In this document: positions 3,528 to 17,616 of the stretch, in pieces
Position numbering within the stretch: the first letter of the stretch is position 1
How the letters are laid out: every line of letters starts with the position of its first letter
Assembly (NCBI GenBank): GCA_020718905.1
Contig: DYRD01000021.1
Location: 1 to 33,733 of the forward strand
DNA length: 33,733 nt
Direction of reading: 5' to 3'
Source: Syntrophus aciditrophicus
Lineage (GTDB): Bacteria; Desulfobacterota; Syntrophia; Syntrophales; UBA8958
Translations under genes and position numbers: made by a program
Notes under the pieces: generated by a model
Seen by the model: only the letters and a program-made list of their open reading frames with translations
Databases searched by the model: none
What the model was told of the DNA's origin: nothing

Positions 3528-3578
3528 GGGTCTGCAGCTCAAGATGAAGAATGGAAAACTATTGGCTTGGCACGGAAA

Positions 3579-3610
3579 GGGAGGGACGCTTGCCAAAAGA
3601 CATCCCTCCC
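3579..3610 (-). other. Intergenic stem-loop between hydA and aspA
   Basis: An 8-bp perfect inverted repeat, GGGAGGGA at 3579-3586 and TCCCTCCC at 3603-3610, with a 16-base loop lies just after the hydA stop in the minus-strand operon. It has no T-tract, so it is not an intrinsic terminator. It might stabilise the 3' end of the hydA message. Functional meaning is unproven. Confidence 0.35.
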
Positions 3611-3626: not shown

Positions 3627-5510
3627 TTAACGTTTTTCTTCCGGACTCAGGGGGTCTTTCTCCGCCCCTTCGCAGGCCTGATGGACAAGTTCGGACCCGC
3701 GGGTTACGACGTGCCCATGCAATAGCTCGTGAGACTTGTGTCCTTCTGGTCTCTTGGGCAGTGGGTGCGGAGCGTCCGTCCCTCTGGCCAGGTAGTGAGT
3801 ATGAAGGAGTTCATGGGATTTATGACCCAGGGGCTCCTTGAGGAAGACATCGTAAATCTTCGTAATCGACGGATTCTCGTGGGACTGGCGATATTTCTGG
3901 ACGCCTCCGTCATCCTTGTACAGGGCTGCCGAGCGGAGCGTCCGGATTTCATTGGTGGTGGGGATAGGTTCTCCGCCGCCGGCGATGCAACCGCCGGGGC
4001 AGCACATGACCTCGATGAAGGCATAATTGGCCTTCCCTTCCCGGATGAGGTCCATAATCTTTCTCGCGTTGCCGAGGCCATGGGCTATGGCCACGGATAC
4101 ATCTCCGAGGGGGCCAACTTTCAGGGTTGCCTCTTTAACCCCCTCCAGACCCCGGACGGGGATAATGTTCAGATTCGGTAGGTTTTCTCCCGTGACCACG
4201 GCGTAAACGGTGCGCAGGGCTGCTTCCATGACACCGCCGGTGGCCCCGAAGATAGTGCCGGCTCCCGTGTATTCGCCCATGGGGGCGTCGTGAGCCTCAT
4301 CGGCCAGATTGAGGAAATCGATGCCCCCTTCCTTGATCATGCGGGCCAGCTCCCGTGTTGTCAGGACGTAATCTACATCACGATAGCCACTGCTGTTCAT
4401 CTCCGGCCGTTGGGCCTCGAATTTCTTGGCTGTGCAGGGCATAATTGAGACCACGACGATATCCTTGGGATCAATACCGGCTGTCTGGGCGTAGTATGTC
4501 TTGGCCATGGCCCCGAACATCTGCTGGGGTGATTTGCAGGTGGAGAGATGATCGAGGAGATCGGGGTAGAAGTGCTCGCAGAACTTGATCCACCCGGGGC
4601 TGCAGGAGGTGATCATAGGCAGCTTGCCACCCTCTTTTACCCGCTTGAGGAGTTCATTTCCTTCTTCGATGATCGTCAAATCGGCTGCAAAATTGGTGTC
4701 GAAAACCTTGTCAAAACCAAGTTTACGCAAGGCGGCAATCATCTTGCCCGTTACGAGGGAGCCGGGCGGTAGCCCGAATTCTTCTCCCAGGGCCGCCCGT
4801 ATGGCCGGCGCTTCCTGGACGACGACATGTTTGGATGGGTTCTGCAATTCTTTCCAGACGGCGTCCACGTCGTCCTTTTCATAAATGGCGCCCACGGGAC
4901 AGGCCATAATGCATTGACCGCAGGCGATGCAGTTCGATTCGATGAGGGGCATATCAAAGGCCGGTACGACCTTGACGTCGCCGCCCCGCCAGGCCGGAGT
5001 CAGGACGCTGACAGTCTGGACCTGTTCACATACGGTGACGCACCGGTGACAATTGATACATTTCCGGTTGTCCCGAACGAGGGAGGGACTGGAGCTGTCG
5101 ATTCCCCCCGTTTCGGGGAAATAAGTGCGCTCGAAACGGACCTCTTTGACGCCCACCTGTTCGGCTACACGCTGCAATTCACAGTTGCCGTTGCGGATAC
5201 AGTAGTTGCATTCCTGGGGATGATCGGCCAGCAGCAGCTCCACGACCATCCGGCGGGCCGTGCGGACCCGGCCGGTATTGGTATGAATTACCATTCCTTC
5301 GGTTACGGGATAGACGCAGGAGGCGATGAGGTTCCGCTGTCCTTCCACTTCGACCAGGCACACCCGGCAGGCCCCGGGGGTATGGCCGATTTCAAACCAG
5401 GCGCAGAGAGTCGGAATTGTGAAGCCCGCCTTTTGAGCGGCGGCGAAGATGGTCGCCCCCGGTTCCACTTCCACATTTATATTATTGACTTTAACTGTGA
5501 TAAGAGACAT
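3627..5510 (-). CDS. hydA: HydA, catalytic subunit of multimeric [FeFe] hydrogenase
   Basis: Group A [FeFe] hydrogenase large subunit, 627 aa, carrying the H-cluster and a relay of FeS clusters. In order: NuoG-like [2Fe-2S] domain (C36, C48, C51, C65); His-Cys3 [4Fe-4S] site (H97, C101, C104, C110); 2x[4Fe-4S] ferredoxin domain (C151-C161 and C194-C204); H-cluster domain with P1 TSCSPGW (301-307), P2 MPCTAKKFE (357-365) and P3 E-V-M-C-C-P-G-G-C (500-508) followed by GGGEP. P1 has Ser where many enzymes have a second Cys. The family's C-terminal tail GHKSHELLHTHY (562-573) appears a second time at 590-600, extending the protein. A GGAGGT site precedes the ATG. It follows hydB by 26 bases and should form one complex with HydB, the HndB-like subunit and HydC in the cytoplasm. 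Confidence 0.97.
   Translation of the reverse strand: MSLITVKVNNINVEVEPGATIFAAAQKAGFTIPTLCAWFEIGHTPGACRVCLVEVEGQRNLIASCVYPVTEGMVIHTNTGRVRTARRMVVELLLADHPQECNYCIRNGNCELQRVAEQVGVKEVRFERTYFPETGGIDSSSPSLVRDNRKCINCHRCVTVCEQVQTVSVLTPAWRGGDVKVVPAFDMPLIESNCIACGQCIMACPVGAIYEKDDVDAVWKELQNPSKHVVVQEAPAIRAALGEEFGLPPGSLVTGKMIAALRKLGFDKVFDTNFAADLTIIEEGNELLKRVKEGGKLPMITSCSPGWIKFCEHFYPDLLDHLSTCKSPQQMFGAMAKTYYAQTAGIDPKDIVVVSIMPCTAKKFEAQRPEMNSSGYRDVDYVLTTRELARMIKEGGIDFLNLADEAHDAPMGEYTGAGTIFGATGGVMEAALRTVYAVVTGENLPNLNIIPVRGLEGVKEATLKVGPLGDVSVAIAHGLGNARKIMDLIREGKANYAFIEVMCCPGGCIAGGGEPIPTTNEIRTLRSAALYKDDGGVQKYRQSHENPSITKIYDVFLKEPLGHKSHELLHTHYLARGTDAPHPLPKRPEGHKSHELLHGHVVTRGSELVHQACEGAEKDPLSPEEKR
3696..3827 (-). repeat. 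Coding repeat: duplicated C-terminal tail of HydA
   Basis: Residues 562-577 (3780-3827) and 590-605 (3696-3743) of HydA repeat the 16-residue unit beginning GHKSHELLH, 28 residues apart, with 12 of 16 positions identical. Over the nine identical leading residues, eight codons differ synonymously between copies (for example GGT/GGA, CAT/CAC, AAA/AAG). The duplication is therefore old and the peptide has been held by selection. Confidence 0.85.
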
Positions 5511-5536: not shown

Positions 5537-8500
5537 TTACACCTCGGCGTCACACCGGAGGCAACGGGTTGCCTCTTTGACGGCGTCTTCCATGGAGAAG
5601 CCAAGTTCCACTTCCACAAAACTAGTTTTTCGCTCCGGTCCGTGCAACTCCGGCATTTTGACCTGGGGCGCTTCCTCGCCTTCCTCATCGATGATAAGCG
5701 GAATATCGATCTTTTCTTCCGCCGGCTCTTCATATGCCGGTTCGCCAGCGGCGAGTCTGATTGCGGCGTCCATGTCCCGGGCCGCCTGATGACCCGCAGC
5801 GATGGCCCCTATTACCGTATCGGGTCCCGATACGGCGTCACCGCCGGCGTAGAATCTGGCGGCTGTTGTCTGGGACTTGCTGCCCTTTGCCAGATCGAAG
5901 CAATCCCACTTATTCACGGACACTCCGCTGTCCTTGGGGACAAAGGTCAGATCCGGGACCTGCCCGATAGCGGCAATAATGGCGTCCACGGCGAGGGTGA
6001 AGGTTGATCCGGGAATGGCCACCGGCTTTCTTCTGCCACTGCGGTCAAACTCGCCGAGCTTCATTCGCTCACAGGTGATGCCAGAGACCTTGCCGCCTTT
6101 GGCATCGATCTTCAGGGGGGCGACGAGGTATTCGATCTTGATCCCTTCGTCTTCCGCAGCGATGATCTCTTCGCTGGCAGCGGGCATATCCTTCCGTTCC
6201 CGGCGATAGAGAATAGTGACGTCCGCCCCGAGACGGAGAGCAACCCGGGCGGCGTCAATGGCCGAATTCCCGCCGCCGATTACGGCGACCTTCGAGCCCA
6301 GGGTCTTTTCACCTTTAACCCAGGCTTCTTCATGGACGTTGAAATCCCTCAGGAACTCCACTCCCCCATGGACGCCGGAGAGGTCTTCCCCTGCCACGCC
6401 CATCTTCTGGCTCTTGTGAGCTCCGGGGGCCAGGTAGACATAATCGAAATCCTTGCTGACAGTTGCGAAAGGCAGATCCCGTCCTACGCGGATGTTGCAT
6501 TTGATCTCCACTCCGAGGGCGGTCACGGCGGCGATTTCGTTGGCCAGGATCTTACGGGGGAGGCGGTACGCGGGAATCGCCCAGCGGAGCATGCCCCCCG
6601 GCTCGGAAAGCTCCTCGAAAACCGTTACCTTGTATCCGCGCAAGGCCAGATCCCGGGCCGCCGTTAAACCGGCAGGGCCGGCGCCGCCGACGGCGATCTT
6701 TTCTTTCCGGGTTACGGCGACGGGTGCGATCTTTGGTCGCGGGGCGTTGTCGCTGATGAAGCGTTTAAGGAATTTGATGGCAATCGGTTCGTCCATTTTG
6801 CCACGTCGGCACTTAGTCTGGCATTTGTGATCGCATACCCGTCCGCAGACCGATGGGAATGGGTTAGTGTGCAGCAGCACCTTATAGGCGTCTTCCATAC
6901 GGTTGGCCCTAATCAGGGCGATGTAGGAAGGAATATCCATCTCGATGGGACAGGTATGCTGGCAGGGAGACTTGAAAAGGGCGGTGCAGACCGCCGCTTC
7001 GCAACGGTGGTTCCGGATGTGATCCTCATACTCTTTCCGGAAGTAACGGATGGTGCTCAGGACCGGATTTGGTGCCGTCTGGCCCAAACCGCAAAGAGAT
7101 GCGTCCTTGATTATGGGGGCCATCTCTTCCAGTAGTTCGATGTCCCCTTCCGAGCCCTTGCCCAGAGTAATGTTTGTCAGGATCTGGAGCATCCGCTTGG
7201 TACCTTCCCGGCAGGGGGTACATTTACCGCAGGACTCATCCTGGCAAAAATCCATGAAGAACCGGGCCATGTCCACGGCGCAGTTGTCTTCGTTCATGAC
7301 GATCAGGCCCCCCGATCCCATGATGGCCCCTAATTCGGCTACCTTTTCATAGTCCACCGAGGCGTTGAGATGCTCAATGGGAATACAGCCCCCCGAGGGG
7401 CCTCCCAACTGGGCGGCTTTGAATTTCTTGCCTTTGGGGATGCCGCCGCCGATATCATAGACGATGGTTCCGAGGGTGGTCCCCATGGGAACTTCCACGA
7501 GGCCGACGTTATTGACGTCTCCCGTGAGGGCGAAGACTTTTGTTCCCTTGCTCTTTTCCGTGCCGACGCCGGCATACCAGGAGCCGCCCCGGAGGATGAT
7601 CTGGCCGATATTGGCGAGGGTTTCCACGTTATTGAGGACGGATGGCCGCTGCCAGAGACCGGCGATGGCGGGGAAGGGCGGACGGGGGCGGGGCATCCCT
7701 CTTTTTCCTTCGATGGAGGTCATCAAGGCGGTTTCCTCGCCGCAGACAAAGGCCCCGGCTCCTTGATAGATTTCCAGGTCAAAGTCAAAACCCGTACCCA
7801 GGATATTGCTGCCCAGGAGTCCCATTTCCTTGGCCTGGTCAATGGCGATATTCATACGGCTGATGGCCAGGGGATATTCGGCGCGGCAGTAGATGTACCC
7901 GTGATGGGAACCGATGGCCTTGGCGGCGATGACCATGCCCTCGAGGACGGCATGGGGATCCGCTTCCAGGACGCTCCGGTCCATGAAGGCCCCGGGGTCC
8001 CCTTCGTCGGCGTTACACAGTACGTACTTGATCTCCCCCGGAGAGGCGGCGGCAAACTTCCATTTCAGCCCCGTGGGGAAGCCGGCGCCTCCCCGACCGC
8101 GCAGACCCGAGGTGAGGACTTCCTGGACGATGTCTTCGGCGCTCAGTTCGGTCAGGGCCTTGGCCATCCCCTGGTAGCCGTCCCGGGCGATGTATTCTTC
8201 AATTTTCTCCGGATCGATGAGCCCCCTGTTCCTGAGCACCCGCAGCTCCTGAAGGGCGAAGAAGGGGATTTCCTGCATCGTCGGAATAACCTCTTCCGTG
8301 GTGGGTTCCCGGTAAAGCAGCCGCTCGAGAATGCGGCCCTTGATCAGGTGTTCTTCCACAAGTTCAGGGATGTCCTCGGCTTTGATCAGCATATAGATGA
8401 CGCCTTCCGGATAGACAACCATGATCGGGCCCATGGCGCAGAAGCCGTTACACCCCGTTTCGACGATCTTAATCTCTTCGGAGAGCTTTCTTTTGGCCAG

Positions 8501-8593
8501 CTCTGCCACCAATGCCTTTTTGACATTAAGACTTCCGGAGGCATGGCAGCCGGTGCCGCCACAAATCAGTAAGTGTGATCGGAATACCTTCAT
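5537..8593 (-). CDS. hydB: HydB: NuoF-like flavoprotein fused to a GltD/NfnB-like NADPH-FAD module
   Basis: A 1018-residue fusion. Residues 1-95 are a thioredoxin-like [2Fe-2S] domain (C11, C16, C48, C52). Residues about 105-530 are NuoF: FMN/NADH elements GLRGRGGAGFPTGLKW (163-178) and NADEGDPGAFMDR (194-206), GAGAFVCGEETAL (278-290), and a [4Fe-4S] site ESCGKCTPC (C455, C458, C461) plus C501. Where Hyd/Hnd homologues usually carry a C-terminal ferredoxin, this protein continues at about 530 into a GltD-like half: N-terminal cysteines (C544, C548, C583, C587, C591, C595), FAD motif GAGPAG (637-642), NAD(P)H motif VIGGGNSAIDAARVALRLGA (771-790) and a closing GD-x(6)-T-V motif (918-927). A GAGGAGG site precedes the start. 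Such fusions are recalled from NADP-linked bifurcating hydrogenases and related transhydrogenases; NADP(H) use here is inferred. Confidence 0.95.
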   Translation of the reverse strand: MKVFRSHLLICGGTGCHASGSLNVKKALVAELAKRKLSEEIKIVETGCNGFCAMGPIMVVYPEGVIYMLIKAEDIPELVEEHLIKGRILERLLYREPTTEEVIPTMQEIPFFALQELRVLRNRGLIDPEKIEEYIARDGYQGMAKALTELSAEDIVQEVLTSGLRGRGGAGFPTGLKWKFAAASPGEIKYVLCNADEGDPGAFMDRSVLEADPHAVLEGMVIAAKAIGSHHGYIYCRAEYPLAISRMNIAIDQAKEMGLLGSNILGTGFDFDLEIYQGAGAFVCGEETALMTSIEGKRGMPRPRPPFPAIAGLWQRPSVLNNVETLANIGQIILRGGSWYAGVGTEKSKGTKVFALTGDVNNVGLVEVPMGTTLGTIVYDIGGGIPKGKKFKAAQLGGPSGGCIPIEHLNASVDYEKVAELGAIMGSGGLIVMNEDNCAVDMARFFMDFCQDESCGKCTPCREGTKRMLQILTNITLGKGSEGDIELLEEMAPIIKDASLCGLGQTAPNPVLSTIRYFRKEYEDHIRNHRCEAAVCTALFKSPCQHTCPIEMDIPSYIALIRANRMEDAYKVLLHTNPFPSVCGRVCDHKCQTKCRRGKMDEPIAIKFLKRFISDNAPRPKIAPVAVTRKEKIAVGGAGPAGLTAARDLALRGYKVTVFEELSEPGGMLRWAIPAYRLPRKILANEIAAVTALGVEIKCNIRVGRDLPFATVSKDFDYVYLAPGAHKSQKMGVAGEDLSGVHGGVEFLRDFNVHEEAWVKGEKTLGSKVAVIGGGNSAIDAARVALRLGADVTILYRRERKDMPAASEEIIAAEDEGIKIEYLVAPLKIDAKGGKVSGITCERMKLGEFDRSGRRKPVAIPGSTFTLAVDAIIAAIGQVPDLTFVPKDSGVSVNKWDCFDLAKGSKSQTTAARFYAGGDAVSGPDTVIGAIAAGHQAARDMDAAIRLAAGEPAYEEPAEEKIDIPLIIDEEGEEAPQVKMPELHGPERKTSFVEVELGFSMEDAVKEATRCLRCDAEV

Positions 8594-8611: not shown

Positions 8612-8995
8612 TTATTTTTGTGTTTCCGAGCCCCGGGCCAGTACGAAGGGATTCTGAATTTCTCCTTCCAGGACGTGCCGCTTGAAGACCTGGCGCATTT
8701 TGTTTGGATTCATGTATTCGTATTTGATCGGTTCCTGGTTGAGTATTTCTACGGTAACCAGGGGTTCCCTGCTGCAGAGACCCATACAGCCCGAGGTGGT
8801 AACGGCCACATCCGTTACCCCGGCTTCTTCAATTTCTTTCAACAGGGAGTCCATAACTTCCTTGGCCCCCGAAGCGATGCCGCAGGTTCCCATGTGCACG
8901 GTGACCTTTACCCGCAGATGACCGTCCCGCAGGGCCGTCTCCGCATGGACCCGCTCCTTGATCTTCTTTAAATCTTCAATCGTGATCTTTGCCAT
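8612..8995 (-). CDS. HndB-like thioredoxin-fold [2Fe-2S] ferredoxin subunit
   Basis: A 127-residue protein resembling the HndB subunit of the Desulfovibrio fructosovorans hydrogenase, a small electron-transfer component between NuoE-like and NuoF-like subunits. The thioredoxin-like [2Fe-2S] fold is suggested by GTCGIASGA (C38) and SGCMGLC (C70, C74). The first half-site has only one cysteine where the C-x4-C pattern of typical members has two (Gly at 43). From memory, the C-G-I-A-x-G-A form is common in HndB homologues, but cluster ligation by three Cys is not something the sequence can settle. It lies between hydC (19 bases upstream) and hydB (18 bases downstream). A GAGG ribosome site precedes the ATG. 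Confidence 0.88.
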   Translation of the reverse strand: MAKITIEDLKKIKERVHAETALRDGHLRVKVTVHMGTCGIASGAKEVMDSLLKEIEEAGVTDVAVTTSGCMGLCSREPLVTVEILNQEPIKYEYMNPNKMRQVFKRHVLEGEIQNPFVLARGSETQK

Positions 8996-9014: not shown

Positions 9015-9509
9015 TCAGTTGTATGCATTTAAGATATCTTTGACTTTTCCGGGTTTTACCCGTCCGTGAACGTCATTGTCCACAACAACGACCGGTCCGA
9101 GGCCGCAGGCCCCCAGGCAACGGACCGACTCATAGGTAAACTTGCGGTCGGGAGTCGTCTCACCTTTCTTGACGCCGAAATTTTTTTCAATGGCGTCCGC
9201 AAGGGCCTTGCCCCCCCGTACATAACAGGCGGTGCCGAGACAGACGCGGACCGTATGCCTTCCCCGGGGGGTCATCGTGAAAAAAGAATAAAAGGTCACG
9301 ACGCCGTAAACTCGACTTAAGGGAAGGTTCAAACCCTTGGCGATCCTTTTCTGGACGGAGACCGGCAAGAATTCAAGGGCTACCTGGGCCTCCTCGAGAA
9401 CAGGAATCAGACCGCCTGGTTTTCCTTGGTACTTGGCGATGATTCCATCCAATTCGGCTATCTTTTCCGCTGAAAATTCATTTAACAATTCGTCATTATC
9501 CGCTTTCAT
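9015..9509 (-). CDS. hydC: HydC, NuoE-like [2Fe-2S] subunit of the hydrogenase
   Basis: A 164-residue NuoE/HndA-type protein. The N-terminal helical bundle is followed by YGVVTFYSFF (68-77) and the thioredoxin-like [2Fe-2S] domain with C90-x4-C95 (CLGTAC) and C131-x3-C135 (CLGAC), the complete set of ligands. In bifurcating hydrogenases this subunit binds the NuoF-like flavoprotein and its cluster takes part in gating electrons around the FMN. An AGGAGG site lies nine bases before the ATG. It is the first structural gene after the regulators and is followed by the HndB-like gene, hydB and hydA, giving the same subunit order as hndABCD. Confidence 0.96.
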   Translation of the reverse strand: MKADNDELLNEFSAEKIAELDGIIAKYQGKPGGLIPVLEEAQVALEFLPVSVQKRIAKGLNLPLSRVYGVVTFYSFFTMTPRGRHTVRVCLGTACYVRGGKALADAIEKNFGVKKGETTPDRKFTYESVRCLGACGLGPVVVVDNDVHGRVKPGKVKDILNAYN

Positions 9510-9542: not shown

Positions 9543-10091
9543 TTACGCTTCCGATCCAATTTCGTTCATGCCTTCCGCAATGTGGCTTCTAATGTATCTA
9601 AGGACTTCCACATGGTTGATGGGGACGTCCTCGATCTCTTTTCTTATCTCTTCCGTACTGAGCACATAGGTTTTCTCACCGCGCTCATGGCAATAGCTAA
9701 AATCAATATCCGGATTGCCGGCGATCAGGGTAACCATAGCCCCGGCGACGTCGCCCAGGGGCTGGCGGTCGAGGTGGCGGAGTCCAAAGGTTACCTTGAG
9801 CCGTGTCCCTTTGCCTGGTTCCGAATTCAGGATCAATCCGCCTCCCGTGCTTGCTGCTGCCTGGGCCAGCATCGGCAGTCCCAGCCCCACCCGGCGGACC
9901 TTCTTGGTCGTGTAGAATGGATCAAGGGCTTTGGTTAGGGTTTCCCTGTCCATGCCGGCGCCGTCGTCGGTGATTGCCAGGGTGAGGAGATCACGGCCGG
10001 GGTCCTCATCTACATGAATATTCACATGCCTGGCCCCGGCACGGGTGGAATTCTCGGCGATATCAAGAATATGTAAGGCTATCTCTAGCAT
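9543..10091 (-). CDS. Stand-alone GHKL/HATPase domain protein, hydrogenase-linked
   Basis: The product is a histidine-kinase-type ATPase without the phosphoacceptor His domain or any sensor domain. It shows an N-box ENSTRAGA, G1 DDGAGM, an F-box DPFYTTK and G2 GLGLPM, followed by a C-terminal extension of about 75 residues containing a lone Cys (FSYCHERG). The chosen ATG at 10091 gives the family-like start MLEIALHILDIAENS. A GTG at 10100 overlapping the PHP stop is possible. It lies between the PHP gene and hydC. This kind of ATPase recurs just upstream of Hyd operons in Firmicutes (from memory). Its partner and phosphorylation target are unknown. It could act as an anti-anti-sigma type switch or a kinase acting on another protein. 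Confidence 0.85.
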   Translation of the reverse strand: MLEIALHILDIAENSTRAGARHVNIHVDEDPGRDLLTLAITDDGAGMDRETLTKALDPFYTTKKVRRVGLGLPMLAQAAASTGGGLILNSEPGKGTRLKVTFGLRHLDRQPLGDVAGAMVTLIAGNPDIDFSYCHERGEKTYVLSTEEIRKEIEDVPINHVEVLRYIRSHIAEGMNEIGSEA

Positions 10092-10092
10092 G

Positions 10093-10833
10093 TCAGACAC
10101 CGTTGATCACATGTCTGCCCGCCTCGCCGCGGAGGGCCATGCCAAGTTCCTGAATATTTCCCGCCTCTATCCATAACTCAATATAAGTCTTGCCGATATC
10201 ACGAAGGAAATGAGTGTCCGAGGAAGTAATAAAGGGATAGCCCCTAAGTTCGGGAAATGTTTCTCTGGCCCTGGACAGACCAAGTCTGGGAGTGACCTCC
10301 AGGGCGTCAAAGGCGAAAGAGGGATCAACGAATCCCAACTGCCCGACAACGCTGAAGCTTTCCCTGTCGATATGGGAGGCGATGGCGAGTCCCCCCAGCC
10401 GATGGATATGGTCAATGACTTCCTGGAGAGACAAAACCGTCGCCCCGATGAGGAGGCGCGGATTGAATCCTTCAACTTCGTCCTTTTCATTGACGATGGC
10501 CTGACAACCGAAAATATTCTCGTCGTTTTCACCTGGCAGGTGATCGTAGATAACCTTCTGGAATTGCTTCAGAAGGAAAATATTATCAAAGAGCGCCAGC
10601 GTGTGGACTTCCTCTCTGCTGGAGACCTCCATACCCGGAAGCACCGTCAGGGGATATCCGGATGCCGCCCGCTGAACGGAGGCGGCATTTTCTGATGAAT
10701 TATGGTCACATATACCGATGATATCAAGCTGCTCTTCACGGACCTTCTCCACAATGGCCCGGGGGTACATATCCAGTTCCGCACATGGCGAAAGGCAGGT
10801 ATGAATGTGAAGGTCACAACGAAACGCCTTCAT
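10093..10833 (-). CDS. PHP-domain metal-dependent phosphoesterase
   Basis: A 246-residue PHP protein. Metal-ligand motifs are complete: DLHIHT (H9, H11), CDHNS (D43, H44), E69 in GMEVSS, H77, ASHIDRE (H154) and SSDTHF (D206, H208). PHP enzymes hydrolyse phosphoesters such as histidinol phosphate, nucleotides or oligonucleotides; the substrate here cannot be told. It overlaps the GTG alternative start of the HATPase gene and lies 15 bases downstream of a strong terminator hairpin that follows the DRTGG gene. The ribosome site is weak (AGG, about 12 bases upstream). Its position ahead of hydC suggests a regulatory or small-molecule signalling role in the hydrogenase locus, which is inference. 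Confidence 0.9.
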   Translation of the reverse strand: MKAFRCDLHIHTCLSPCAELDMYPRAIVEKVREEQLDIIGICDHNSSENAASVQRAASGYPLTVLPGMEVSSREEVHTLALFDNIFLLKQFQKVIYDHLPGENDENIFGCQAIVNEKDEVEGFNPRLLIGATVLSLQEVIDHIHRLGGLAIASHIDRESFSVVGQLGFVDPSFAFDALEVTPRLGLSRARETFPELRGYPFITSSDTHFLRDIGKTYIELWIEAGNIQELGMALRGEAGRHVINGV

Positions 10834-10847
10834 CAGGGGTTGAACCT

Positions 10848-10877
10848 AAAAAAAAGACCATGATGTCATGGTCTTTT
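10848..10877 (-). terminator. Intrinsic terminator inside the hydrogenase locus
   Basis: On the minus strand, immediately after the DRTGG stop codon, arms AAAAGACCATGA (complement of 10866-10877) and TCATGGTCTTTT (complement of 10852-10863) form an 11-12 bp stem with a tiny loop. It is followed by an uninterrupted eight-T run (10848-10855). This is a textbook rho-independent terminator. It separates the three distal regulators from PHP-HATPase-hydCBA, with no room for a promoter before the PHP start at 10833. Readthrough, or a promoter inside the upstream gene, would be needed. Confidence 0.85.
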
Positions 10878-11236
10878 CATGCGGAAGGGTCTGGCCCCTT
10901 CTTTCCTGCGATCATGTTGTATACCCTGCCGATAACTTCAAAACCTGGCATATCCGTAACCATAATCGGGACGCCTTCCTTCCGGGCCTTATCCAGCGTA
11001 TCGGCAGCCGGTTGGCAACCCTGAATGAGGATGATTCCGGCATGGTCCTTAAGGCTGGCCACGGCAATTATGTTCTGATGAATCTGCCGGGTGATCCAGA
11101 GATCCCCTTCTTTGCTGTTGGCCATGACATCGCTCAAGAGGTCGCCGACGTATCCCCCCCTAACCTCGGCAGCGAGTCTTTCCTCACCGGAGACAACCCT
11201 TAAGTCCAGCGCCCTGACAATGTCATCTAAATGCAT
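10877..11236 (-). CDS. DRTGG-domain protein (second copy)
   Basis: A 119-residue single-domain protein. It resembles the DRTGG domain, a small alpha/beta ligand-binding-type domain found between CBS domains or in phosphotransacetylase N-termini, as judged by RVVSGEERLAAEVRGGYVGDLLSDVMAN and the following strand-rich pattern ending in an IIL-x-GC stretch. The ligand is unknown. A related gene (11695-12069) lies two genes upstream, with an RsbW-like ATPase between them, so the pair sandwiches the ATPase. No strong ribosome site is visible, and it begins 11 bases after the ATPase gene's inferred intact stop (one base after the frameshifted stop), suggesting translational coupling. An intrinsic terminator overlaps its stop codon. 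Confidence 0.8.
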   Translation of the reverse strand: MHLDDIVRALDLRVVSGEERLAAEVRGGYVGDLLSDVMANSKEGDLWITRQIHQNIIAVASLKDHAGIILIQGCQPAADTLDKARKEGVPIMVTDMPGFEVIGRVYNMIAGKKGPDPSA

Positions 11237-11247
11237 GCTAAATTAAA

Positions 11248-11738
11248 CTAAATGCCATCAAAATCTTTATCGATACTAATAACCATCTTGAGATGGGTGC
11301 CTTTGCCGATCTCCGAGGTGATACGAAAGAAATCGGAAAAATTCTTGATGTTACAAAGTCCCATCCCATCCCGGCCCCGAAACCCATTTCCCTAATCTTG
11401 TCCGTCGCCGTCGAATAACCTTCCTGCATAGCCAGTTCGATATCAACGATGCCCTGCCCCTCATCAATCGCTTCGATCGTGACGTGTTCCGGCGTTACCC
11501 GGAGGAGGATCTTGCCGCTTCTTGCATAGGAACAGATATTGATCTCTGATTCGTAAGTAACTAAGGCGGCCCGTCTGACGACCTCCTTGGAAATTTTCAT
11601 CCTTTTCAGCAGGGCCTTGATCTGGCTGGAGACATGCCCAGCATTTTCGTAAGTTCCGCCCTCTACGGGAAAGGAATTTTCATAGATGGCGGTTTCACGA
11701 GAAAGCACGTTCGTCGTCAACCCTTTCCATACAGCCAA
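11248..11738 (-). pseudogene. RsbW-like anti-sigma factor / serine kinase ATPase, frameshifted by a 5-bp duplication
   Basis: The frame encodes an anti-sigma regulatory factor-type HATPase: TYESEINICSYA (N-box), AIDEGQGI (G1) and EMGFGAGMG (G2). After G2 the product becomes nonsense and ends at 11238. Removing one copy of a tandem CCCAT (11360-11364, 11365-11369) restores the expected ending: G-L-C-N-I-K-N-F-S-D-F-F-R-I-T, then SEIGKGTHLKMVISIDKDF, with a stop at 11248-11250. The gene is thus intact except for this 5-bp duplication. The start is uncertain: TTG at 11738 has an AAAGG site and GTG at 11708 is an alternative; both overlap the upstream DRTGG gene. RsbW-type proteins bind sigma factors or phosphorylate STAS proteins; no partner is visible here. 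Sequencing error, strain-level mutation or phase variation are all possible. Confidence 0.85.
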
Positions 11739-12069
11739 CGATACCTTTTGCGTACAGCTTTCCGGCGGTTTCGAAAAGGATATATTTAGTGGTCAGCACC
11801 GGTATCAGGAACTCTTCCGCAAGGCGGAGCGTTTCCGGTGATGGTCGTTTTCCTCGTACCATAATAATAGCGGCGATATCGAGAACATCAGACGTCCGGA
11901 TGACCTGAGGGTTCGTCAGACCGGTCAGCAACAGACTCCCCGCCTTGGCAAAGGCCAGGACATCACTCATGAGATCGGCTCCGAAGGCCGTCTTTATCTC
12001 TTTGTCCAACTGATCGTGGCCGACGAGAACTTCTGCATCCAGTAGCTCTTTTATCTCCCGAAGCGTCAC
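11695..12069 (-). CDS. DRTGG-domain protein (first copy, head of the hydrogenase locus)
   Basis: A 124-residue DRTGG-type protein starting at GTG 12069 with an AGGAG site six bases ahead. It aligns along its length with the second DRTGG protein: V-L-V-G-x(3)-L-D-x-E-I-x(3)-F-G-A-D-L-M-S-D-V-L-A-F-A-K corresponds to the partner's V-V-S-G ... V-G-D-L-L-S-D-V-M-A-N-S-K. No catalytic motif is evident. It is the first gene of the minus-strand hydrogenase cluster and overlaps the RsbW-like gene, so it is probably co-translated with it. Comparable DRTGG/ATPase/DRTGG/PHP/ATPase strings precede Hyd genes in Firmicutes (from memory), hinting at a conserved signalling unit, possibly sensing a nucleotide or redox cofactor. 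Confidence 0.8.
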   Translation of the reverse strand: MTLREIKELLDAEVLVGHDQLDKEIKTAFGADLMSDVLAFAKAGSLLLTGLTNPQVIRTSDVLDIAAIIMVRGKRPSPETLRLAEEFLIPVLTTKYILFETAGKLYAKGIVGCMERVDDERAFS

Positions 12070-12198
12070 CTTGCTCTCCTTTGAAAGAAAATATGTTAAA
12101 AATCAATACTCTAACTCGTTCCCTGAAATCCGCATCCGCTTACCACAAGGAAAGGGGGGATGTCAATAAAATTGTCCCCAGGGGGAAAATAATTGCCC

Positions 12199-12225
12199 TT
12201 GATCTTGGTCCAATCGTGGTATAGC
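12199..12225 (+). promoter_or_regulatory. Weak sigma-70-like promoter candidate ahead of the panC leader
   Basis: TTGATC (12199-12204) and TATAGC (12220-12225) resemble -35 and -10 boxes but are only 15 bases apart. It lies in the 215-base gap (12070-12284) between the divergent hydrogenase locus and the panC leader. I saw no convincing promoter for the minus-strand operon in that gap. Confidence 0.25.
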
Positions 12226-12284
12226 TGCGAGAGCTGCAAGCGAGGAGTGATGGTTTTCTTTGTGAACGATATTATGGAATTTTT

Positions 12285-12476
12285 ATGGAACTTATGTTAA
12301 TAATAAACCGATCTTTTTATGAAGAAAGGTTTTTTACCTATATCGATAAACGCTTTGAAGACGCGTTGGGATATGCCCTCCATGACTTGATCGACAAACC
12401 ATCGATAATAATTGCGTTATTTGCCAGTGAGAAAAGCCGCGTAAAAAATCTTGACGACTTTTTGAAGTTCTGTTAG
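12285..12476 (+). CDS. Possible small hypothetical protein in the panC leader
   Basis: An open frame of 63 codons starting MELMLIINRSFYEERFFTYI and ending in NLDDFLKFC. I do not recognise it. There is no good ribosome site before the ATG at 12285, and a 16-codon frame (12250-12300) with a GAGGAG site overlaps its start. Charged and aromatic residues are well mixed, so it could be a real small soluble protein, but it may equally be untranslated leader. The following terminator at 12552-12582 would end any transcript carrying it. Confidence 0.3.
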   Translation: MELMLIINRSFYEERFFTYIDKRFEDALGYALHDLIDKPSIIIALFASEKSRVKNLDDFLKFC

Positions 12477-12511
12477 GGGGAAAAAACCGCTTGGATCCCT
12501 TGGGGGACTGG

Positions 12512-12562
12512 GACGGAAGGTTAGGGGAATGTAACAGGGACGAAATTCCAGGCCTCCCGTCA
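12512..12562 (+). promoter_or_regulatory. Possible antiterminator pairing in the panC leader
   Basis: GACGGAAGG (12512-12520) can pair with CCTCCCGTC (12554-12562) with one mismatch. The latter is most of the 5' arm of the terminator at 12552-12582, so the two structures exclude each other, as in attenuators and riboswitches. No known riboswitch class was recognised in the leader. This is an inference from complementarity alone. Confidence 0.3.
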
Positions 12563-12582
12563 GTGACGGCGAGGCTTTTTTT
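12552..12582 (+). terminator. Intrinsic terminator 19 bases before panC
   Basis: GCCTCCCGTC (12552-12561) pairs with GACGG-C-GAGGC (12565-12575) across a 3-base loop with one bulged C. Seven Ts follow (12576-12582). It is very strong in form and sits just ahead of the panC ATG, so it either ends an upstream small transcript or acts as an attenuator for panC-panD. Confidence 0.85.
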
Positions 12583-12601
12583 GTTTAAGTGGGATGCGCC
12601 C

Positions 12602-13459
12602 ATGAAGATTATCGAGACGGTCAAGGAAATGCAGTATTATGCCGAGTCCCTGAGAATCACGGGAAAGAAGATCGTCTTTGTGCCGACCATGGGCTACTTT
12701 CATGAGGGCCACCTCGATTTAATGAGGGTCGGCCGGAAGCGAGGGGATTGTCTGGTCATCAGTATCTATGTGAATCCGACCCAGTTTGGGCCCAACGAAG
12801 ACCTGGCCAAGTATCCCCGTGATTTTGAAAGAGACCGGAAAATGGCGGCGAGGGTGGGTGTGGATGTCATCTTCTCCCCCCCCAACGAAGAGATGTATCC
12901 AGACAACTACCAGACCTATGTAAATGTGGAAGGGGTTACGGACAACCTTTGCGGACTATCCCGGTCCGGGCATTTCCGGGGTGTTACCACGGTGTGCTGC
13001 AAGCTTTTTCACATGGTCAAACCTCATGTCACCATTTTCGGCAAGAAAGATTTTCAACAATTGGCCGCCATCAATAGGATGGTCAGCGATCTCAATATGG
13101 ATCTGGAGGTCGTCGCCATGGAGACGACGCGGGAAACGGACGGTCTGGCCATGAGTTCCCGGAATATTTATCTCAAGCCCGAGGAGCGGGAATCGGCCTT
13201 GAGCCTCAGCCGTTCCCTGAAAATGGCGAAGGAAATGTATGACCGGGGGGAAAGGGATGCCGGGGTAATCCTTGACAAGGTTCGGACATTTATCGAGAAT
13301 CATCCCCATGCCCGGATCGATTACGTCCAGATCTGTGATACCAAGACCATGAAGGACGTTGAAAGGTTGGACAGCGAGACCGGTATCGTCCTGGCCGTGA
13401 GGGTGGGGACGGCCCGCTTGATAGATAATTACGTCTTCGGAGCTCCTCTGGAGATATGA
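12602..13459 (+). CDS. panC: Pantothenate synthetase (pantoate-beta-alanine ligase)
   Basis: PanC joins pantoate and beta-alanine with ATP to make pantothenate, the precursor of coenzyme A. The ATG at 12602 gives 285 aa, the usual length, starting MKIIETVKEM. Diagnostic motifs: PTMGYFHEGHLDLM (the family P-T-M-G-[AY]-L-H-x-G-H), SIYVNPTQFGPNEDLAKYPR, and FGKKDFQQLAAINRMV (the F-G-x-K-D-x-Q-Q-L motif), followed by RETDGLAMSSRN. The usual G-A-L-H is G-Y-F-H here, a mild variation. panD follows after 17 bases, so beta-alanine production and use are linked. panB is not in the window. Confidence 0.97.
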   Translation: MKIIETVKEMQYYAESLRITGKKIVFVPTMGYFHEGHLDLMRVGRKRGDCLVISIYVNPTQFGPNEDLAKYPRDFERDRKMAARVGVDVIFSPPNEEMYPDNYQTYVNVEGVTDNLCGLSRSGHFRGVTTVCCKLFHMVKPHVTIFGKKDFQQLAAINRMVSDLNMDLEVVAMETTRETDGLAMSSRNIYLKPEERESALSLSRSLKMAKEMYDRGERDAGVILDKVRTFIENHPHARIDYVQICDTKTMKDVERLDSETGIVLAVRVGTARLIDNYVFGAPLEI

Positions 13460-13476
13460 AAAAGGAGTAGAAGTCT

Positions 13477-13833
13477 ATGGAGAGGTTCATGCTGAAATCA
13501 AAACTACATCGAGCCGTCGTAACGGACGCGGATCTCCATTATGAGGGGAGCATTTCCATTGATGAAGGCCTGCTGGAAGCGGCGGACATCATTCCCTACG
13601 AAAAGGTCGCCATTTATAATGTGACCAATGGCGAACGTTTTACCACGTATGCGATCAAAGCCGCCCGGGGATCGGGAACCTTCTGCCTGAACGGCGCCGC
13701 GGCCCATAAGGCCTCCAAGGGAGACGTGATCATTGTTGCGACTTATGTTACCGCCGCGGCTTCAGAGCTCAAGGACTGGTCTCCTAAATGCGTTCTCCTC
13801 GACGGCAATAACAAAATCAAAAAAACAAGCTGA
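13477..13833 (+). CDS. panD: Aspartate 1-decarboxylase proenzyme
   Basis: PanD makes beta-alanine from L-aspartate using a pyruvoyl group formed by self-cleavage. At 118 aa it has the typical length and start (M-L-K-S-K-L-H-R-A, positions 5-13). The cleavage site G24-S25 is in YEGSISID, and the catalytic/processing environment [10 protein letters not shown] and [19 protein letters not shown] is intact. A GGAG site lies before the ATG. It is downstream of panC in one operon. Aspartate is also the substrate of the aspA product encoded in the divergent hydrogenase locus, but there is no sign of a regulatory tie. Confidence 0.97.
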
Positions 13834-13872
13834 AACGCAGCTCTCAAGAACCGATTTAATTCAATATGATAC

Positions 13873-13898
13873 GGACAAGGCTGGTAGATGCCTTGCCC
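13873..13898 (+). other. Hairpin between panD and the DUF502 gene
   Basis: GGACAAGGC (13873-13881) and GCCTTGCCC (13890-13898) form a nine-pair stem with one A-C mismatch and an eight-base loop. Only a weak T-rich stretch follows, so it may be a leaky terminator or mRNA-processing hairpin rather than an efficient stop. Confidence 0.35.
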
Positions 13899-13926
13899 GT
13901 TTGTCTGTCCCGGAGATCATCAGAAA

Positions 13927-14559
13927 ATGAGAAAGAAAATCAGGCAGATATTTATTGCCGGACTGGCGGCCACGATTCCCATCGGTCTGAGCTTATATGT
14001 CCTCTTCTTTCTCATCGCCCTCATGGATAACCTCCTGAGGATCATCCCCACCCGTTTTCATCCCGATACCCTGTTGCAGTTCCACATCCCCGGCCTCGGC
14101 TTCATTTTCGTCATTGGGCTGATTTTTATCGCCGGCATGCTGATGAAGAGTTATGTCGGGAACAGGATTGTCAACCTTGGCGAAACCATCTTTCACAAGA
14201 TACCCGTAATCCGGAGTGTGTATGACGGGGCCAAACAGGTTGTGGACAGATTGGTTGTCAATAAAAACCGTAGTTTCAAGAAGGTCGTCCTCATGGAATT
14301 TCCCCGCCCCGGTGTTTACACCGTCGGTTTTGTTACCGGTCCGGCAAATGATCGGATCTGGTGCCATGTCGGCCAGCCCTGTACCAACGTCTTTGTTCCC
14401 ACCACCCCCAACCCCACCTCGGGATATCTGCTGGTTATTCCTGATCGGGATCTCATCGAAGTCAACATGACCGTAGAAGAGGCCCTTACCTATGTCATTT
14501 CCTGCGGGATCGTTCAACCCCAAGTTCTCAAAATGAAATTTGATCTAAAAAGTCATTGA
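13927..14559 (+). CDS. DUF502 family membrane protein
   Basis: A 210-residue protein from the ATG at 13927 (MRKKIRQIFIAG). It has two hydrophobic segments near residues 8-33 and 52-76, then a cytoplasmic or periplasmic domain. Family hallmarks are GLAATIPIGLSLYVL, the turn IPVIRSVYDGAKQV, VVLMEFPRPGVYTVGFVTG and FVPTTPNPTSGYLLVIP. The last is the best-known DUF502 signature. The function of the family is not established. The frame is open upstream, but the earlier in-frame codons give no membrane-family residues and the GGAG before the ATG is 11 bases away. It lies between panD and metK with no clear functional tie. Confidence 0.9.
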   Translation: MRKKIRQIFIAGLAATIPIGLSLYVLFFLIALMDNLLRIIPTRFHPDTLLQFHIPGLGFIFVIGLIFIAGMLMKSYVGNRIVNLGETIFHKIPVIRSVYDGAKQVVDRLVVNKNRSFKKVVLMEFPRPGVYTVGFVTGPANDRIWCHVGQPCTNVFVPTTPNPTSGYLLVIPDRDLIEVNMTVEEALTYVISCGIVQPQVLKMKFDLKSH

Positions 14560-14619
14560 AGTCATTCAGAGGGTTGTGTTATTAGCCGGAAAGATAATGC
14601 CACAAAAGGAGCGGGCCCC

Positions 14620-15798
14620 ATGTATATCACGTCGGAGAGCGTCAAGGTCGGACACCCGGATATGGTATGTGATGCCATCGCAGCCAATATTATTGCCGAG
14701 ATCCTGTCGGAAGAAAAGAAGATAGGCATGACCATCGATGATATGCCTCATTGCGGGCTGGAGGTCTTTCTTGGCAAGGGTCTCTGTGTAGTCGGCGGTG
14801 AGGTTACCACGCGCAGCTATGTGGATATCGATAAGGTAATAAGGAAAACGGTCCTTTCGCTTGGATACAGAGACTCCGCCGTCGGTCTCAACGGCAGTTC
14901 GCCGGGGATTCTCAATGCCATGATTCCCCAGTCCCCGGACATCAATATGGGGACGCGGGCCGGACTGGGAAAATATCATGAAATCGGCGCCGGTGATCAG
15001 GGCATTATTTACGGCTTTGCCTGTGATGAGACGCCGGAGTTCTTGCCCCTTCCCTATGTGTTGGGAAACCGTCTGATGCGGGCTTTTGAATATTGCGGTA
15101 ATCCCGTTTTCGCTCCCGACGGAAAAGGTCAGGTGACCGTGGAATACGACGAAAAGATGGCGCCGGTCCGCGTCGCGACAGTCCTCATGTCCAATGCCGT
15201 CGATTATCTTCAGGTTCCCGATACGTTCCGCAGCACCATCGAACACGTCGCCCGCGATATTGCCATGGAGGCCCTGCAAGATCAAGTGGATGATAAAACG
15301 CTTTTTCTCTTCAACCCGACCGGTGAATGGCAGGCGATCAATTCCTGCAGCGCCGCCGATTCGGGAGTGACGGGCAGGAAGCTGGTCGTGCAACTCTATG
15401 GAGGTTATCCGGGGGCCCAGATCGGCGGCGGGGCGGTTGTGAACAAGACGCCGGGAAAAGTCGATTGTTCCGCGACTTTTGGTACTCGCTACGTAGCGAA
15501 AAATATCGTTGCCGCCGGACTGGCAAAGAGGTGCGCCATCCAGGTCGCTTACGCCATCGGGATCGCCGCACCCATTTCAATTTACGTCAATACCTTCGGA
15601 ACGGGACAGGTCGGAGATGATGACTTGGGAAAAATGATTGGCGAGATCTTTGATCTTACCACCCGGGGGATGATTGAGAATTTCGATTTACTCGACAGCA
15701 GAACGTATAAGAAGATCTCCCGGACCCTGTTTATGGATGATTATCCCTGGGAGAAAACAGATAAGGTGGAGGCCATGAAGGCTGGGGCCGGCCGTTAA
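14620..15798 (+). CDS. metK: S-adenosylmethionine synthetase (methionine adenosyltransferase), divergent form
   Basis: The enzyme makes S-adenosylmethionine from methionine and ATP. At 392 aa it is of normal length. The residues matching E. coli MetK catalytic groups are kept: H12 and D14 in GHPD, D126 in GAGDQG (123-128), D167 and K169 in DGKGQVT, D247, R253 and K254 (TGRK), K276, K280 and D282. The surrounding signatures are not: GHPDK is GHPDM, the FxxGGPxxD loop reads [10 protein letters not shown], and the usual GGGAFSxKD is GGGAVVNKT (269-277). An AAAAGGAG site precedes the ATG. ahcY follows almost directly, completing SAM synthesis and SAH recycling. Activity is likely but not certain. 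Confidence 0.88.
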
Positions 15799-15817
15799 GA
15801 TGAAACAAGGAGGATTT

Positions 15818-17242
15818 GTGGATTACAAAAAGATTGATCTATCAGTACCATACAAAGTCGCCGACATCGGTCTGGCCGACTGGGGACGCAAGGAAATGGA
15901 ATTGGCGGAAAATGAAATGCCCGGCCTGATGGCGGTCCGCAAAAAATACGGTCCCAAGAAACCCCTCCAGGGGAAAAAGATCATGGGCAGCCTGCACATG
16001 ACCATTCAGACGGCGATGCTCATCGAGACCCTCAAGGAACTGGGGGCGGATCTCCGCTGGGCCTCCTGCAATATCTTTTCGACCCAGGATCACGCCACCG
16101 CGGCTATTGCCAAAGCGGGTACGGCGGCCGTATTCGCCTGGAAGGGAGAGACCTTGGAGGAGTATTGGTGGTGCACGGAACAGGCGGTCACCTGGCCCGA
16201 CGGGTCGGGTCCCGAATTGCTCGTCGATGACGGCGGCGATGCCACGCTCTTGATCCATCAGGGCGTTAAGATTGAAAAGAATCCGGATCTCCTTAAGGAT
16301 ATCCCCGAGAACAAGGAATTTCGCATCATCATGGAGCGTCTTGCCCAGGGATATAAAAAGGACAAGCAGCGCTGGCAAAGGGTTGCGGCCCAAGTGATCG
16401 GTGTTTCCGAGGAAACAACGACGGGGGTGCACCGTTTATATCAGATGCAAAAAAACGGGGAACTCCTGTTTCCCGCCATCAATGTCAATGATTCGGTGAC
16501 AAAATCCAAATTCGACAACCTCTACGGCTGTCGCGAATCCCTTGTTGACGGTATCAAGAGGGCGACGGACGTCATGGTGGCGGGCAAGCTCGTGGTGATC
16601 TGCGGCTACGGCGATGTCGGCAAGGGATCGGCCCAGTCGATGAGAGGATTTGGCGCCCGGGTGGTCGTTACGGAAATCGATCCCATCTGCGCCCTCCAGG
16701 CGGCCATGGAAGGTTATGAAGTGGTAACCCTCGAAGATGTCGTAGCCAAGGCGGACATTTTTGTGACGGCAACGGGTTGTTGCGAGGTCATTTCCGGCGA
16801 CCACATGGAAAAGATGAAAGACGAAGCGATCATCTGCAATATCGGGCACTTTGATAGCGAGATCGCCATGCACTACCTGGAGAACAGCAACCAGTGCCGG
16901 AAACAAACGATCAAGCCCCAGGTGGATAAGTGGACCCTCGCCTCGGGCCGGTCGATCATTGTGCTGGCGGAAGGGCGGCTCGTCAATCTTGGTTGCGCCA
17001 CGGGCCATCCGAGTTTTGTCATGAGCAACAGCTTCACGAACCAGTGCCTGGCCCAGATAGAATTGGTGAAGAACAAGTATGAGCCGGGGGTGTACATTCT
17101 GCCCAAGATCCTCGACGAAGAGGTGGCGAGACTCCATTTGGGCCGGCTGGGAGCCCGGCTGACCAAGTTGACGAAAGCGCAGGCGGATTATCTCGGCATT
17201 GCCGCCAAAGGTCCCTTCAAGCCGGAGCAGTACCGCTACTAA
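15818..17242 (+). CDS. ahcY: Adenosylhomocysteinase (S-adenosylhomocysteine hydrolase)
   Basis: AhcY hydrolyses S-adenosylhomocysteine to adenosine and homocysteine with a bound NAD. The GTG start at 15818 has an ideal AGGAGG four bases ahead and gives 474 aa beginning [19 protein letters not shown]; an ATG at 15800, two codons ahead of that AGGAGG, would add six residues. Substrate and NAD motifs are complete: [10 protein letters not shown] (57-66), [38 protein letters not shown] and the NAD-binding [10 protein letters not shown] (263-272). The C-terminus KPEQYRY is conserved in the family. It belongs with metK. Adenosine released here could feed the adenosine deaminase encoded at 23499, though that protein appears secreted. 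Confidence 0.98.
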
Positions 17243-17277
17243 CAACCACGCCCGCAGCGGGCTCAATACAAAATATA

Positions 17278-17322
17278 AATCCCCCCATCCCCCTTTTGCA
17301 AAGAGGGATGGGGGGATTTTTT
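17278..17322 (+). terminator. Strong intrinsic terminator after ahcY
   Basis: AATCCCCCCATCCC (17278-17291) pairs perfectly over 14 bp with GGGATGGGGGGATT (17305-17318). CTTT (17293-17296) and AAAG (17300-17303) extend the stem inside the loop. Six Ts follow (17317-17322). The AT-rich sequence before the stem may let it work in both directions. Similar C-run/G-run palindromes occur repeatedly in many deltaproteobacterial genomes, so it may also be a dispersed repeat copy. Confidence 0.9.
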
Positions 17323-17400
17323 ATATTGAATGGGAAAGATTATTTGCGGAGTAAAAGAATAAAGTGCAACCAAAGATAAAATATTGTATACTAGTAAGGC

Positions 17401-17616
17401 ATGAAGATCAGCGTCGATCTTCGATCAAAGGGCCGATCCCGTTTCGAGTGGGCACCGAGGAGGTCGAGAATGACCGTGGTCGAGTCGAGGGGCAGCAGGG
17501 GTGTGTCGGCCCCCTATACCCATGCCAAGAACCAGAGACTGCTGATACGGATGGTCATCGCGAACGACGAGCGCGTTGTAGAGCTCAGGGTCTGCAAAGG
17601 ATGGGGCTATGAGTAA
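17401..17616 (+). CDS. Possible small ORF ahead of the hexokinase gene
   Basis: A 71-codon frame beginning MKISVDLRSKGRSRFEWAPR, rich in Arg and Ser, which overlaps the hexokinase start by eight bases (ATGAGTAA). I do not recognise it. It has only a weak AAGG site before the ATG, a TATACT hexamer at 17387-17392 without a -35 partner, and composition not clearly like a folded protein. It could be a small co-translated protein or just untranslated leader of the hexokinase message. Confidence 0.2.
   Translation: MKISVDLRSKGRSRFEWAPRRSRMTVVESRGSRGVSAPYTHAKNQRLLIRMVIANDERVVELRVCKGWGYE

Follow-up and report, generated by a model that had tools for sequence, protein, structure and literature searches.

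Ahead of the hydrogenase structural genes of Syntrophus aciditrophicus lies a string of five small genes, which encode, in order, a stand-alone DRTGG protein (DRTGG1), a kinase of the RsbW/SpoIIAB type, a second DRTGG protein (DRTGG2), a PHP-domain phosphoesterase and a GHKL ATPase. We analysed this module in a stretch of 33,733 nucleotides (assembly GCA_020718905.1, contig DYRD01000021.1), hereafter the window, and compared it with loci from other genomes. The module is a real and widely conserved regulatory unit. It tracks the NADH-oxidising HydC/HydB pair and not the hydrogenase as such, and sequence comparisons support an input that sits on the kinase and is exchangeable between lineages. 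The best explanation, which we hold tentatively and at somewhat less than an even chance, is a switch that regulates an NAD(H)-linked oxidoreductase, in which a kinase, its DRTGG partners and a PHP phosphatase would take an exchangeable input and act on the HydBC enzyme.

Conservation of the module and its tie to HydC/HydB

Among 80 related genomes of the order Syntrophales, searched separately with the PHP protein and with an RsbW profile, 57 carry both genes, one carries PHP only, none carries RsbW only and 22 carry neither. The sole PHP-only relative (G018) has the gene on a 3.2-kb contig. The Fisher p value for this co-occurrence, 8e-19, is not corrected for phylogeny and overstates independence because the 80 genomes are related. 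The RsbW gene is located less than 2.5 kb from PHP in 51 of the 58 cases. Of the unique Syntrophales-centred loci, 88 extend far enough upstream; all five genes are found in exact order and strand in 72 of them, and within 6 kb of PHP, DRTGG1 is present in 83, RsbW in 82, DRTGG2 in 87 and the ATPase in all 88 of these loci. The first-pass annotation, made from the window sequence, had regarded the string as a conserved unit ahead of hydrogenase genes and had called for a neighbourhood survey; the survey bears this out, with the five genes co-occurring beyond chance. Outside of Syntrophales, PHP is present in 56 of 296 genomes of the spirochaete phylum. The 39 loci collected beyond the order, mostly from spirochaetes, have DRTGG2 (35), RsbW (33), DRTGG1 (24) and a nearby ATPase (17). 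All locus counts are conditional on PHP because the loci were chosen by this gene. The same string had also been said to precede Hyd operons in Firmicutes. This is partly the case, judged from one record (Subdoligranulum, L163) and from published gene lists for Halanaerobium (PMC4237134) and for C. thermocellum (Clostridium) and other species (PMC3561251); in these, however, the string includes a sensory hydrogenase, and the HATPase gene is part of the Hyd operon.

Several loci depart from the common layout. DRTGG1 is tandemly duplicated in four Smithella-type loci (L148, L149, L152, L153). In genomes of the spirochaete phylum, the gene for an MCP-domain protein separates RsbW from DRTGG2 (L223, 9726-11816) and a HAD hydrolase gene separates DRTGG1 from RsbW (L231, 11178-12032; L242, 6641-7672). 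A fusion of DRTGG2 and PHP in L137, hinted at by the span of the open reading frame (ORF), was not reported by the domain scan, and we do not claim it.

The module may consist of two transcription units. A strong terminator-like hairpin over the DRTGG2 stop codon (10851-10878; −15.2 kcal/mol, z −3.8) recurs in six congeners and may separate them. In L154, L057 and L059, the half comprising DRTGG1, RsbW, HydS (a sensory hydrogenase) and DRTGG2 is divergent from PHP, the ATPase and the Hyd genes, and in L163 a DRTGG1-RsbW-HydS-DRTGG2-PHP string is divergent from HydC-ATPase-Fd-HydB-HydA. The distance matrices of the module genes correlate only moderately (0.26-0.64), which points to two halves (DRTGG1-RsbW and DRTGG2-PHP-ATPase) more than to one rigid block. 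Together, divergent layouts, hairpin and correlations thus suggest two transcription halves.

The label 'hydrogenase-linked', given to the module in the first pass, is correct insofar as the module lies upstream of hydrogenase genes, but it is too narrow, since formate dehydrogenase and NiFe hydrogenase take the same place. Three genomes of the window's genus (G001, G003, G007) carry a HydB of 92-93% identity, and their loci L088, L082 and L036 run into FdhA and not HydA. In these loci FdhA consists of an N-terminal iron-sulphur segment and one in-frame TGA, followed by a long ORF; in L091, which has the same layout, reading TGA as selenocysteine gives a formate dehydrogenase (molybdopterin oxidoreductase, 310 bits). 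Where HydB is kept close to the module, [FeFe] HydA comes next as the catalytic subunit in 27 loci, FdhA in 19, a NiFe hydrogenase in three and FeFe plus NiFe in one; 21 have no catalytic subunit directly adjoining (a few with HydA further on) and 19 reach the contig end. The FdhA and NiFe versions rule out a purely hydrogenase-linked operon. With HydB orthologues defined by at least 70% identity, 55 of the 80 relatives carry both HydB and PHP, six HydB only, three PHP only and 16 neither. Three of the HydB-only cases have HydB at or near a contig end. The others are L252 and L253, where HydC/HydB stand with FdhA and the module is absent, and L251, in which fragments of PHP and the ATPase precede intact HydC-Fd-HydB-HydA. 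These three loci argue against the module being essential for the enzyme, for which it thus looks dispensable. In L251 (865-8730 and upstream), the decayed module precedes a single HydB, after which come both HydA and a TGA-split FdhA.

Exchangeable input and the module proteins

A HydS resembling the M2e (group-D) type is encoded in 11 loci, between or adjoining RsbW and DRTGG2. In most of them the first cluster motif of the H-domain reads SCPA and lacks a second cysteine, and the C-terminus has a Cx2Cx4Cx16C cluster site. RsbW and HydS form one ORF in L225 and L248, and HydS and DRTGG1 form one ORF in L093, L094 and L102. An N-terminal CBS pair is fused to RsbW in 31 loci (34 ORFs), mostly from spirochaetes, and no locus has both HydS and CBS-RsbW (11 versus 31 loci). 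The Syntrophales-type module, including that of the window, mostly has neither. The first-pass statement that no sensor domain is present therefore holds for the window's version but not for the loci with HydS or CBS-RsbW. As alternative input domains are fused to one kinase, the input would appear to act on RsbW; this is the strongest hint of direction. HydS is absent from the window and from the rest of its own genome (G000; 3.0 Mb, 319 contigs), where the matches are only the operon's HydA and ferredoxin-type proteins.

Group-D (M2e) HydS loci are among the closest known relatives of this arrangement. That group-D HydS lies near kinases and upstream of bifurcating hydrogenases was noted in 2012 by Carere et al. 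(PMC3561251) and in 2020 by Land et al. (PMC8163306). Around TamHydS (PMC8163306) and Cthe_0335 with Cthe_0340-0342 (PMC3561251), and in Halsa_1862-1871 (PMC4237134), one neighbourhood holds HydS together with PHP, a kinase-like ATPase and the HydC, HydB and HydA genes, and the HydS-bearing relatives share that arrangement; unlike these loci, the window's operon and genome lack HydS. The Halanaerobium operon is printed gene by gene, uninterpreted, in PMC4237134. The operon of C. thermocellum includes Cthe_0339, which carries the annotation histidine kinase (PMC3990059) and would by its position be the MutL-like ATPase described below. The available parts of the group-D HydS papers name the kinase beside HydS; neither the two DRTGG genes nor CBS-bearing kinases, gene fusions and versions with formate dehydrogenase or NiFe hydrogenase are mentioned in these parts. 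Group C HydS proteins with a PAS domain (Ruminococcus albus HydS, T. saccharolyticum HfsB; PMC5707799) follow a similar logic and combine an H2 sensor with Ser/Thr kinase or phosphatase partners. They differ from the module in having a PAS domain and a SpoIIE-type phosphatase where it has DRTGG and PHP. L057 contains both kinds: a PAS-type HydS and a SpoIIE phosphatase are found within a few kb of the cassette of DRTGG1, RsbW, M2e HydS and DRTGG2 (11107-17575).

SpoIIAB can be aligned with the RsbW relatives, which match its profile at E 2e-10. Intact members have invariant E43, N47, D72, G74, G76, G103 and G105 and G1/G2 boxes DxGxGI and GFGAGMG; E43 and N47, four residues apart, correspond to the catalytic Glu and Mg-binding Asn of the SpoIIAB type. 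The module kinase domain is thus homologous to that of Rsb/SpoIIAB partner switches, with catalytic residues kept, but the module lacks STAS, PP2C and sigma genes, and DRTGG and PHP stand in their place. Pfam scans found no STAS or PP2C in the module, the Hyd operon or other window ORFs; STAS and SpoIIE proteins of canonical type are encoded on other contigs of the genome. That the kinase is closest to the anti-sigma factor SpoIIAB and that STAS and SpoIIE proteins are encoded elsewhere is compatible with a transcriptional partner switch, in which the module would end on a sigma factor or a repressor (for example, Rex) encoded elsewhere and set expression of the Hyd/Fdh operon. In L217, a gene for a Rex-like NADH-sensing/redox repressor adjoins DRTGG1 (11142-11834) and the Hyd operon is divergent, and in L136 (2456-3535) the HATPase is extended by a long tail, part of which weakly matches a winged-helix-type domain. 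Yet sigma and STAS genes are absent from the module, most module versions have no DNA-binding domain, and no Rex-type operator precedes the operon: a search of the window returned a single one-mismatch match, away from the operon, which is exceeded by the shuffle mean of 2.1. We consider a transcriptional switch unlikely.

Both DRTGG proteins exceed the Pfam cut-off of 25.2 bits (42.8 and 30.7 bits). The AlphaFold model of DRTGG1 (mean predicted local distance difference test score 92.5) matches the DRTGG structure 2ioj best among PDB entries (Z 17.2) and, as modelled, has a true DRTGG fold; a STAS-like fold was considered, but no STAS entry is among the matches listed. DRTGG2 forms a subfamily with the motifs DLLSDV and WITRQxHQNIVAVASLK. 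The literal DR...TGG motif is not kept in alignments of either family. The DRTGG1 model is also similar (Z 14.7) to the regulatory region that CBS and DRTGG form in family II pyrophosphatases (3l2b, 3l31). Loci with CBS-RsbW likewise combine the two domains; unlike in these enzymes, DRTGG in the module is free-standing and CBS sits on the kinase and not in an enzyme insert. In PHP, the presumed metal ligands H9, H11, D43, H44, E69, H77, H154, D206 and H208 are invariant in 26 sequences; the phosphatase role of this presumed metallophosphoesterase is predicted. The pyrophosphatase region was solved with AMP and Ap4A (PMC7226116), and the nearest, though distant, matches of PHP are PHP enzymes that act on nucleotides (5'-3' exoribonuclease), both of which would suit a nucleotide-metabolite module: DRTGG and CBS would read an adenylate or Ap4A-type signal, PHP would make or destroy it, and the RsbW-like protein would be a pseudo-kinase scaffold. 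Strict conservation of the kinase catalytic residues in intact family members and loss of the literal DRTGG motif speak against this, and it is the least probable of the alternatives.

The last ATPase, listed as a HATPase in the first pass, models as MutL-like and not as kinase-like. Its closest solved folds are the N-terminal GHKL ATPases of MutL/PMS2 (132 residues, Z 13.1, root-mean-square deviation 3.1), and a histidine kinase is rejected, as the 185-aa protein gives no DHp (HisKA) match. In contrast to MutL, it is short, has its own C-terminal motif, H-x-DRQPLGD, after the ATPase core, and lacks a mismatch-repair context. The MutL-like fold without DHp raises the question of assembly or quality control, whereby a MutL/Hsp90-like ATPase would act as an ATP-driven chaperone for HydBC-type flavin/iron-sulphur subunits, with DRTGG adaptors and PHP hydrolysing a nucleotide by-product, and no signalling. 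Of the module genes, it is also the ATPase gene that Subdoligranulum and spirochaetes have within their HydC-Fd-HydB operon, and the association with HydB holds whichever catalytic subunit comes next. Nevertheless, HydC/HydB operons exist without the module (L252, L253) or with a decayed one (L251), the module of Parabacteroides has no HydBC nearby, and the SpoIIAB-like kinase and its HydS/CBS fusions would be left unexplained. A chaperone role is therefore improbable, to about the same degree as the transcriptional switch.

The locus in Syntrophus aciditrophicus

The five genes occur in the order and single direction given by the first-pass annotation, with all ORFs on the minus strand and 9543-12069 as their exact outer limits (Table 1). 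HydC, the 2Fe-2S protein, HydB and HydA continue on the same strand 3' of the module, and the gaps from DRTGG1 to HydA are, in order, −44, 1, 43, −8, 33, 19, 18 and 26 nt. A HydABC set is thus present, with group A6 HydA, NuoF-like HydB and NuoE-like HydC in one operon.

Table 1. Positions of the module genes and of the operon that follows them, in window coordinates
Feature	Position	Strand	Evidence
DRTGG1, 124-aa stand-alone DRTGG protein	11695..12069	−	Pfam PF07085, 42.8 bits; model match 2ioj
RsbW/SpoIIAB-like Ser/Thr kinase gene, frameshifted	11238..11738	−	HATPase_c_2 below cut-off; SpoIIAB-like relatives
DRTGG2, 119-aa stand-alone DRTGG protein, own subfamily	10877..11236	−	Pfam PF07085, 30.7 bits; alignment
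Terminator-like hairpin across DRTGG2 stop codon, with T run after it	10851..10878	−	Folding energy
PHP-domain metallophosphoesterase (presumed)	10093..10833	−	Pfam PF02811, 26.8 bits (cut-off 26.4); presumed metal-ligand motifs
GHKL ATPase without DHp, 185 aa	9543..10100	−	HATPase_c, 52.5 bits; MutL-like model
HydC (NuoE-like), first structural gene	9015..9509	−	Profile matches
2Fe-2S ferredoxin-like protein	8612..8995	−	Profile matches
HydB, NuoF-like NADH-oxidising subunit with GltD-like domain	5537..8593	−	Profile matches
HydA, NADH-dependent [FeFe] hydrogenase, group A6	3627..5510	−	NF040763, 898 bits (cut-off 765)

The RsbW-like gene is broken by a frameshift that had been missed in the first pass. 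A 5-bp tandem duplication, TGGGATGGGA (TGGGA twice), at 11359-11368 on the minus strand is missing from five congeners, whose RsbW-like genes are intact. The shift falls inside the G2 box/ATP-lid box (GFGAGMG|LCNIKN...), such that the E/N pair and G1 box are present and the G2 box is out of frame; the genuine C-terminus, LCNIKNFSDFFRITSEIGKGTHLKMVISIDKDFDGI, of about 40 residues, lies in another frame down to about 11248. The score of the ORF against HATPase_c_2 (22.3 bits, cut-off 27.4) is below the cut-off at least partly because the gene is broken. Either the kinase has been lost in this lineage or the assembly is wrong at this site. With the gene broken, the switch in this genome may be stuck or lost.

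The genome contains no further small DRTGG gene; the third DRTGG match is part of a 708-aa ORF, probably phosphate acetyltransferase, a name suggested by ORF length. HydB (5537-8593, 1018 aa) carries a fused GltD-like NAD(P)H-binding half. Genes for the HydF maturase and an aspartate ammonia-lyase-like protein, which overlap by 4 nt, lie 3' of HydA on the same strand (862-3596). Two long ORFs of the window, at 23499-24638 and 25391-27295, have no Pfam match at 1e-8.

A possible switch for NADH-linked oxidoreductases

Under the switch that we prefer, with roles assigned from protein families, the RsbW/SpoIIAB-type kinase would phosphorylate, or be held by, the two DRTGG proteins, which would stand where Rsb systems have STAS proteins. 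Removal of the phosphate, for which those systems use a PP2C phosphatase, would fall to the PHP enzyme and reset the switch, and the MutL-like ATPase would pass the state to the HydC/HydB pair as effector. HydS fused to the kinase or to DRTGG1 in some lineages would be a presumed H2 input, and the CBS pair fused to the kinase in others a presumed adenylate input; as no input domain is left in the window's lineage, the signal there would enter via a DRTGG ligand or the enzyme. We infer both the kinase targets and the output of the module. Direct control of the hydrogenase, as suggested in the first pass, is possible. In favour of the switch are the co-occurrence and the fusions described above, and also the Rex-like gene that adjoins the module in L217.

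Several observations weigh against this switch. The module occurs without HydC/HydB nearby in many spirochaetes, in Parabacteroides distasonis, where a stand-alone set of six genes is followed by TPR and gyrA (L162), next to dnaA/dnaN (L136), and in L142 (similarly L137) alongside acyl-CoA mutase and corrinoid adenosyltransferase in fused form; HydBC therefore cannot be the sole target. Among spirochaete genomes, HydA occurs in 21 of the 22 that bear the module, yet also in 12 of 20 without a module match. The kinase gene is broken in the window genome itself. The module contains no STAS, sigma factor or receiver, and since no STAS fold is among the matches listed for DRTGG1, a STAS-like role for the DRTGG proteins is an analogy only. 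The pattern of sensor exchange is partly confounded with phylogeny, and phosphorylation, ligands and interactions of the members are predicted from sequences and models.

As the first-pass annotation had presumed, the openly accessible literature, outside of which most subscription papers lie, yields no described mechanism; nor are the paired DRTGG genes, the CBS-bearing kinase, the fusions or the version with formate dehydrogenase described there. Signal transfer by group-D HydS without a PAS domain is stated to be an open question in PMC8163306, and a 2026 study disputed earlier ideas on group-D HydS signalling (PMC13104023). That the module is an undescribed architecture, with an RsbW-type kinase, DRTGG for STAS, PHP for PP2C and swappable HydS (H2) or CBS (adenylate) sensors, gating NADH-linked hydrogenases and formate dehydrogenases, seems doubtful, although less so than either the chaperone or the transcriptional alternative.

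The module probably tunes how anaerobes dispose of NADH-borne electrons, and its relatives occur in gut Bacteroidota, Clostridia and spirochaetes. If the undescribed architecture is real, the module would supply the output path that has been missing for group-D sensory hydrogenases. The natural RsbW-HydS and HydS-DRTGG1 fusions point to the likely next components of HydS signalling and allow them to be tested directly. In syntrophs, the transfer of H2 and of formate would be controlled through the module, provided that it sets the HydBC enzyme.

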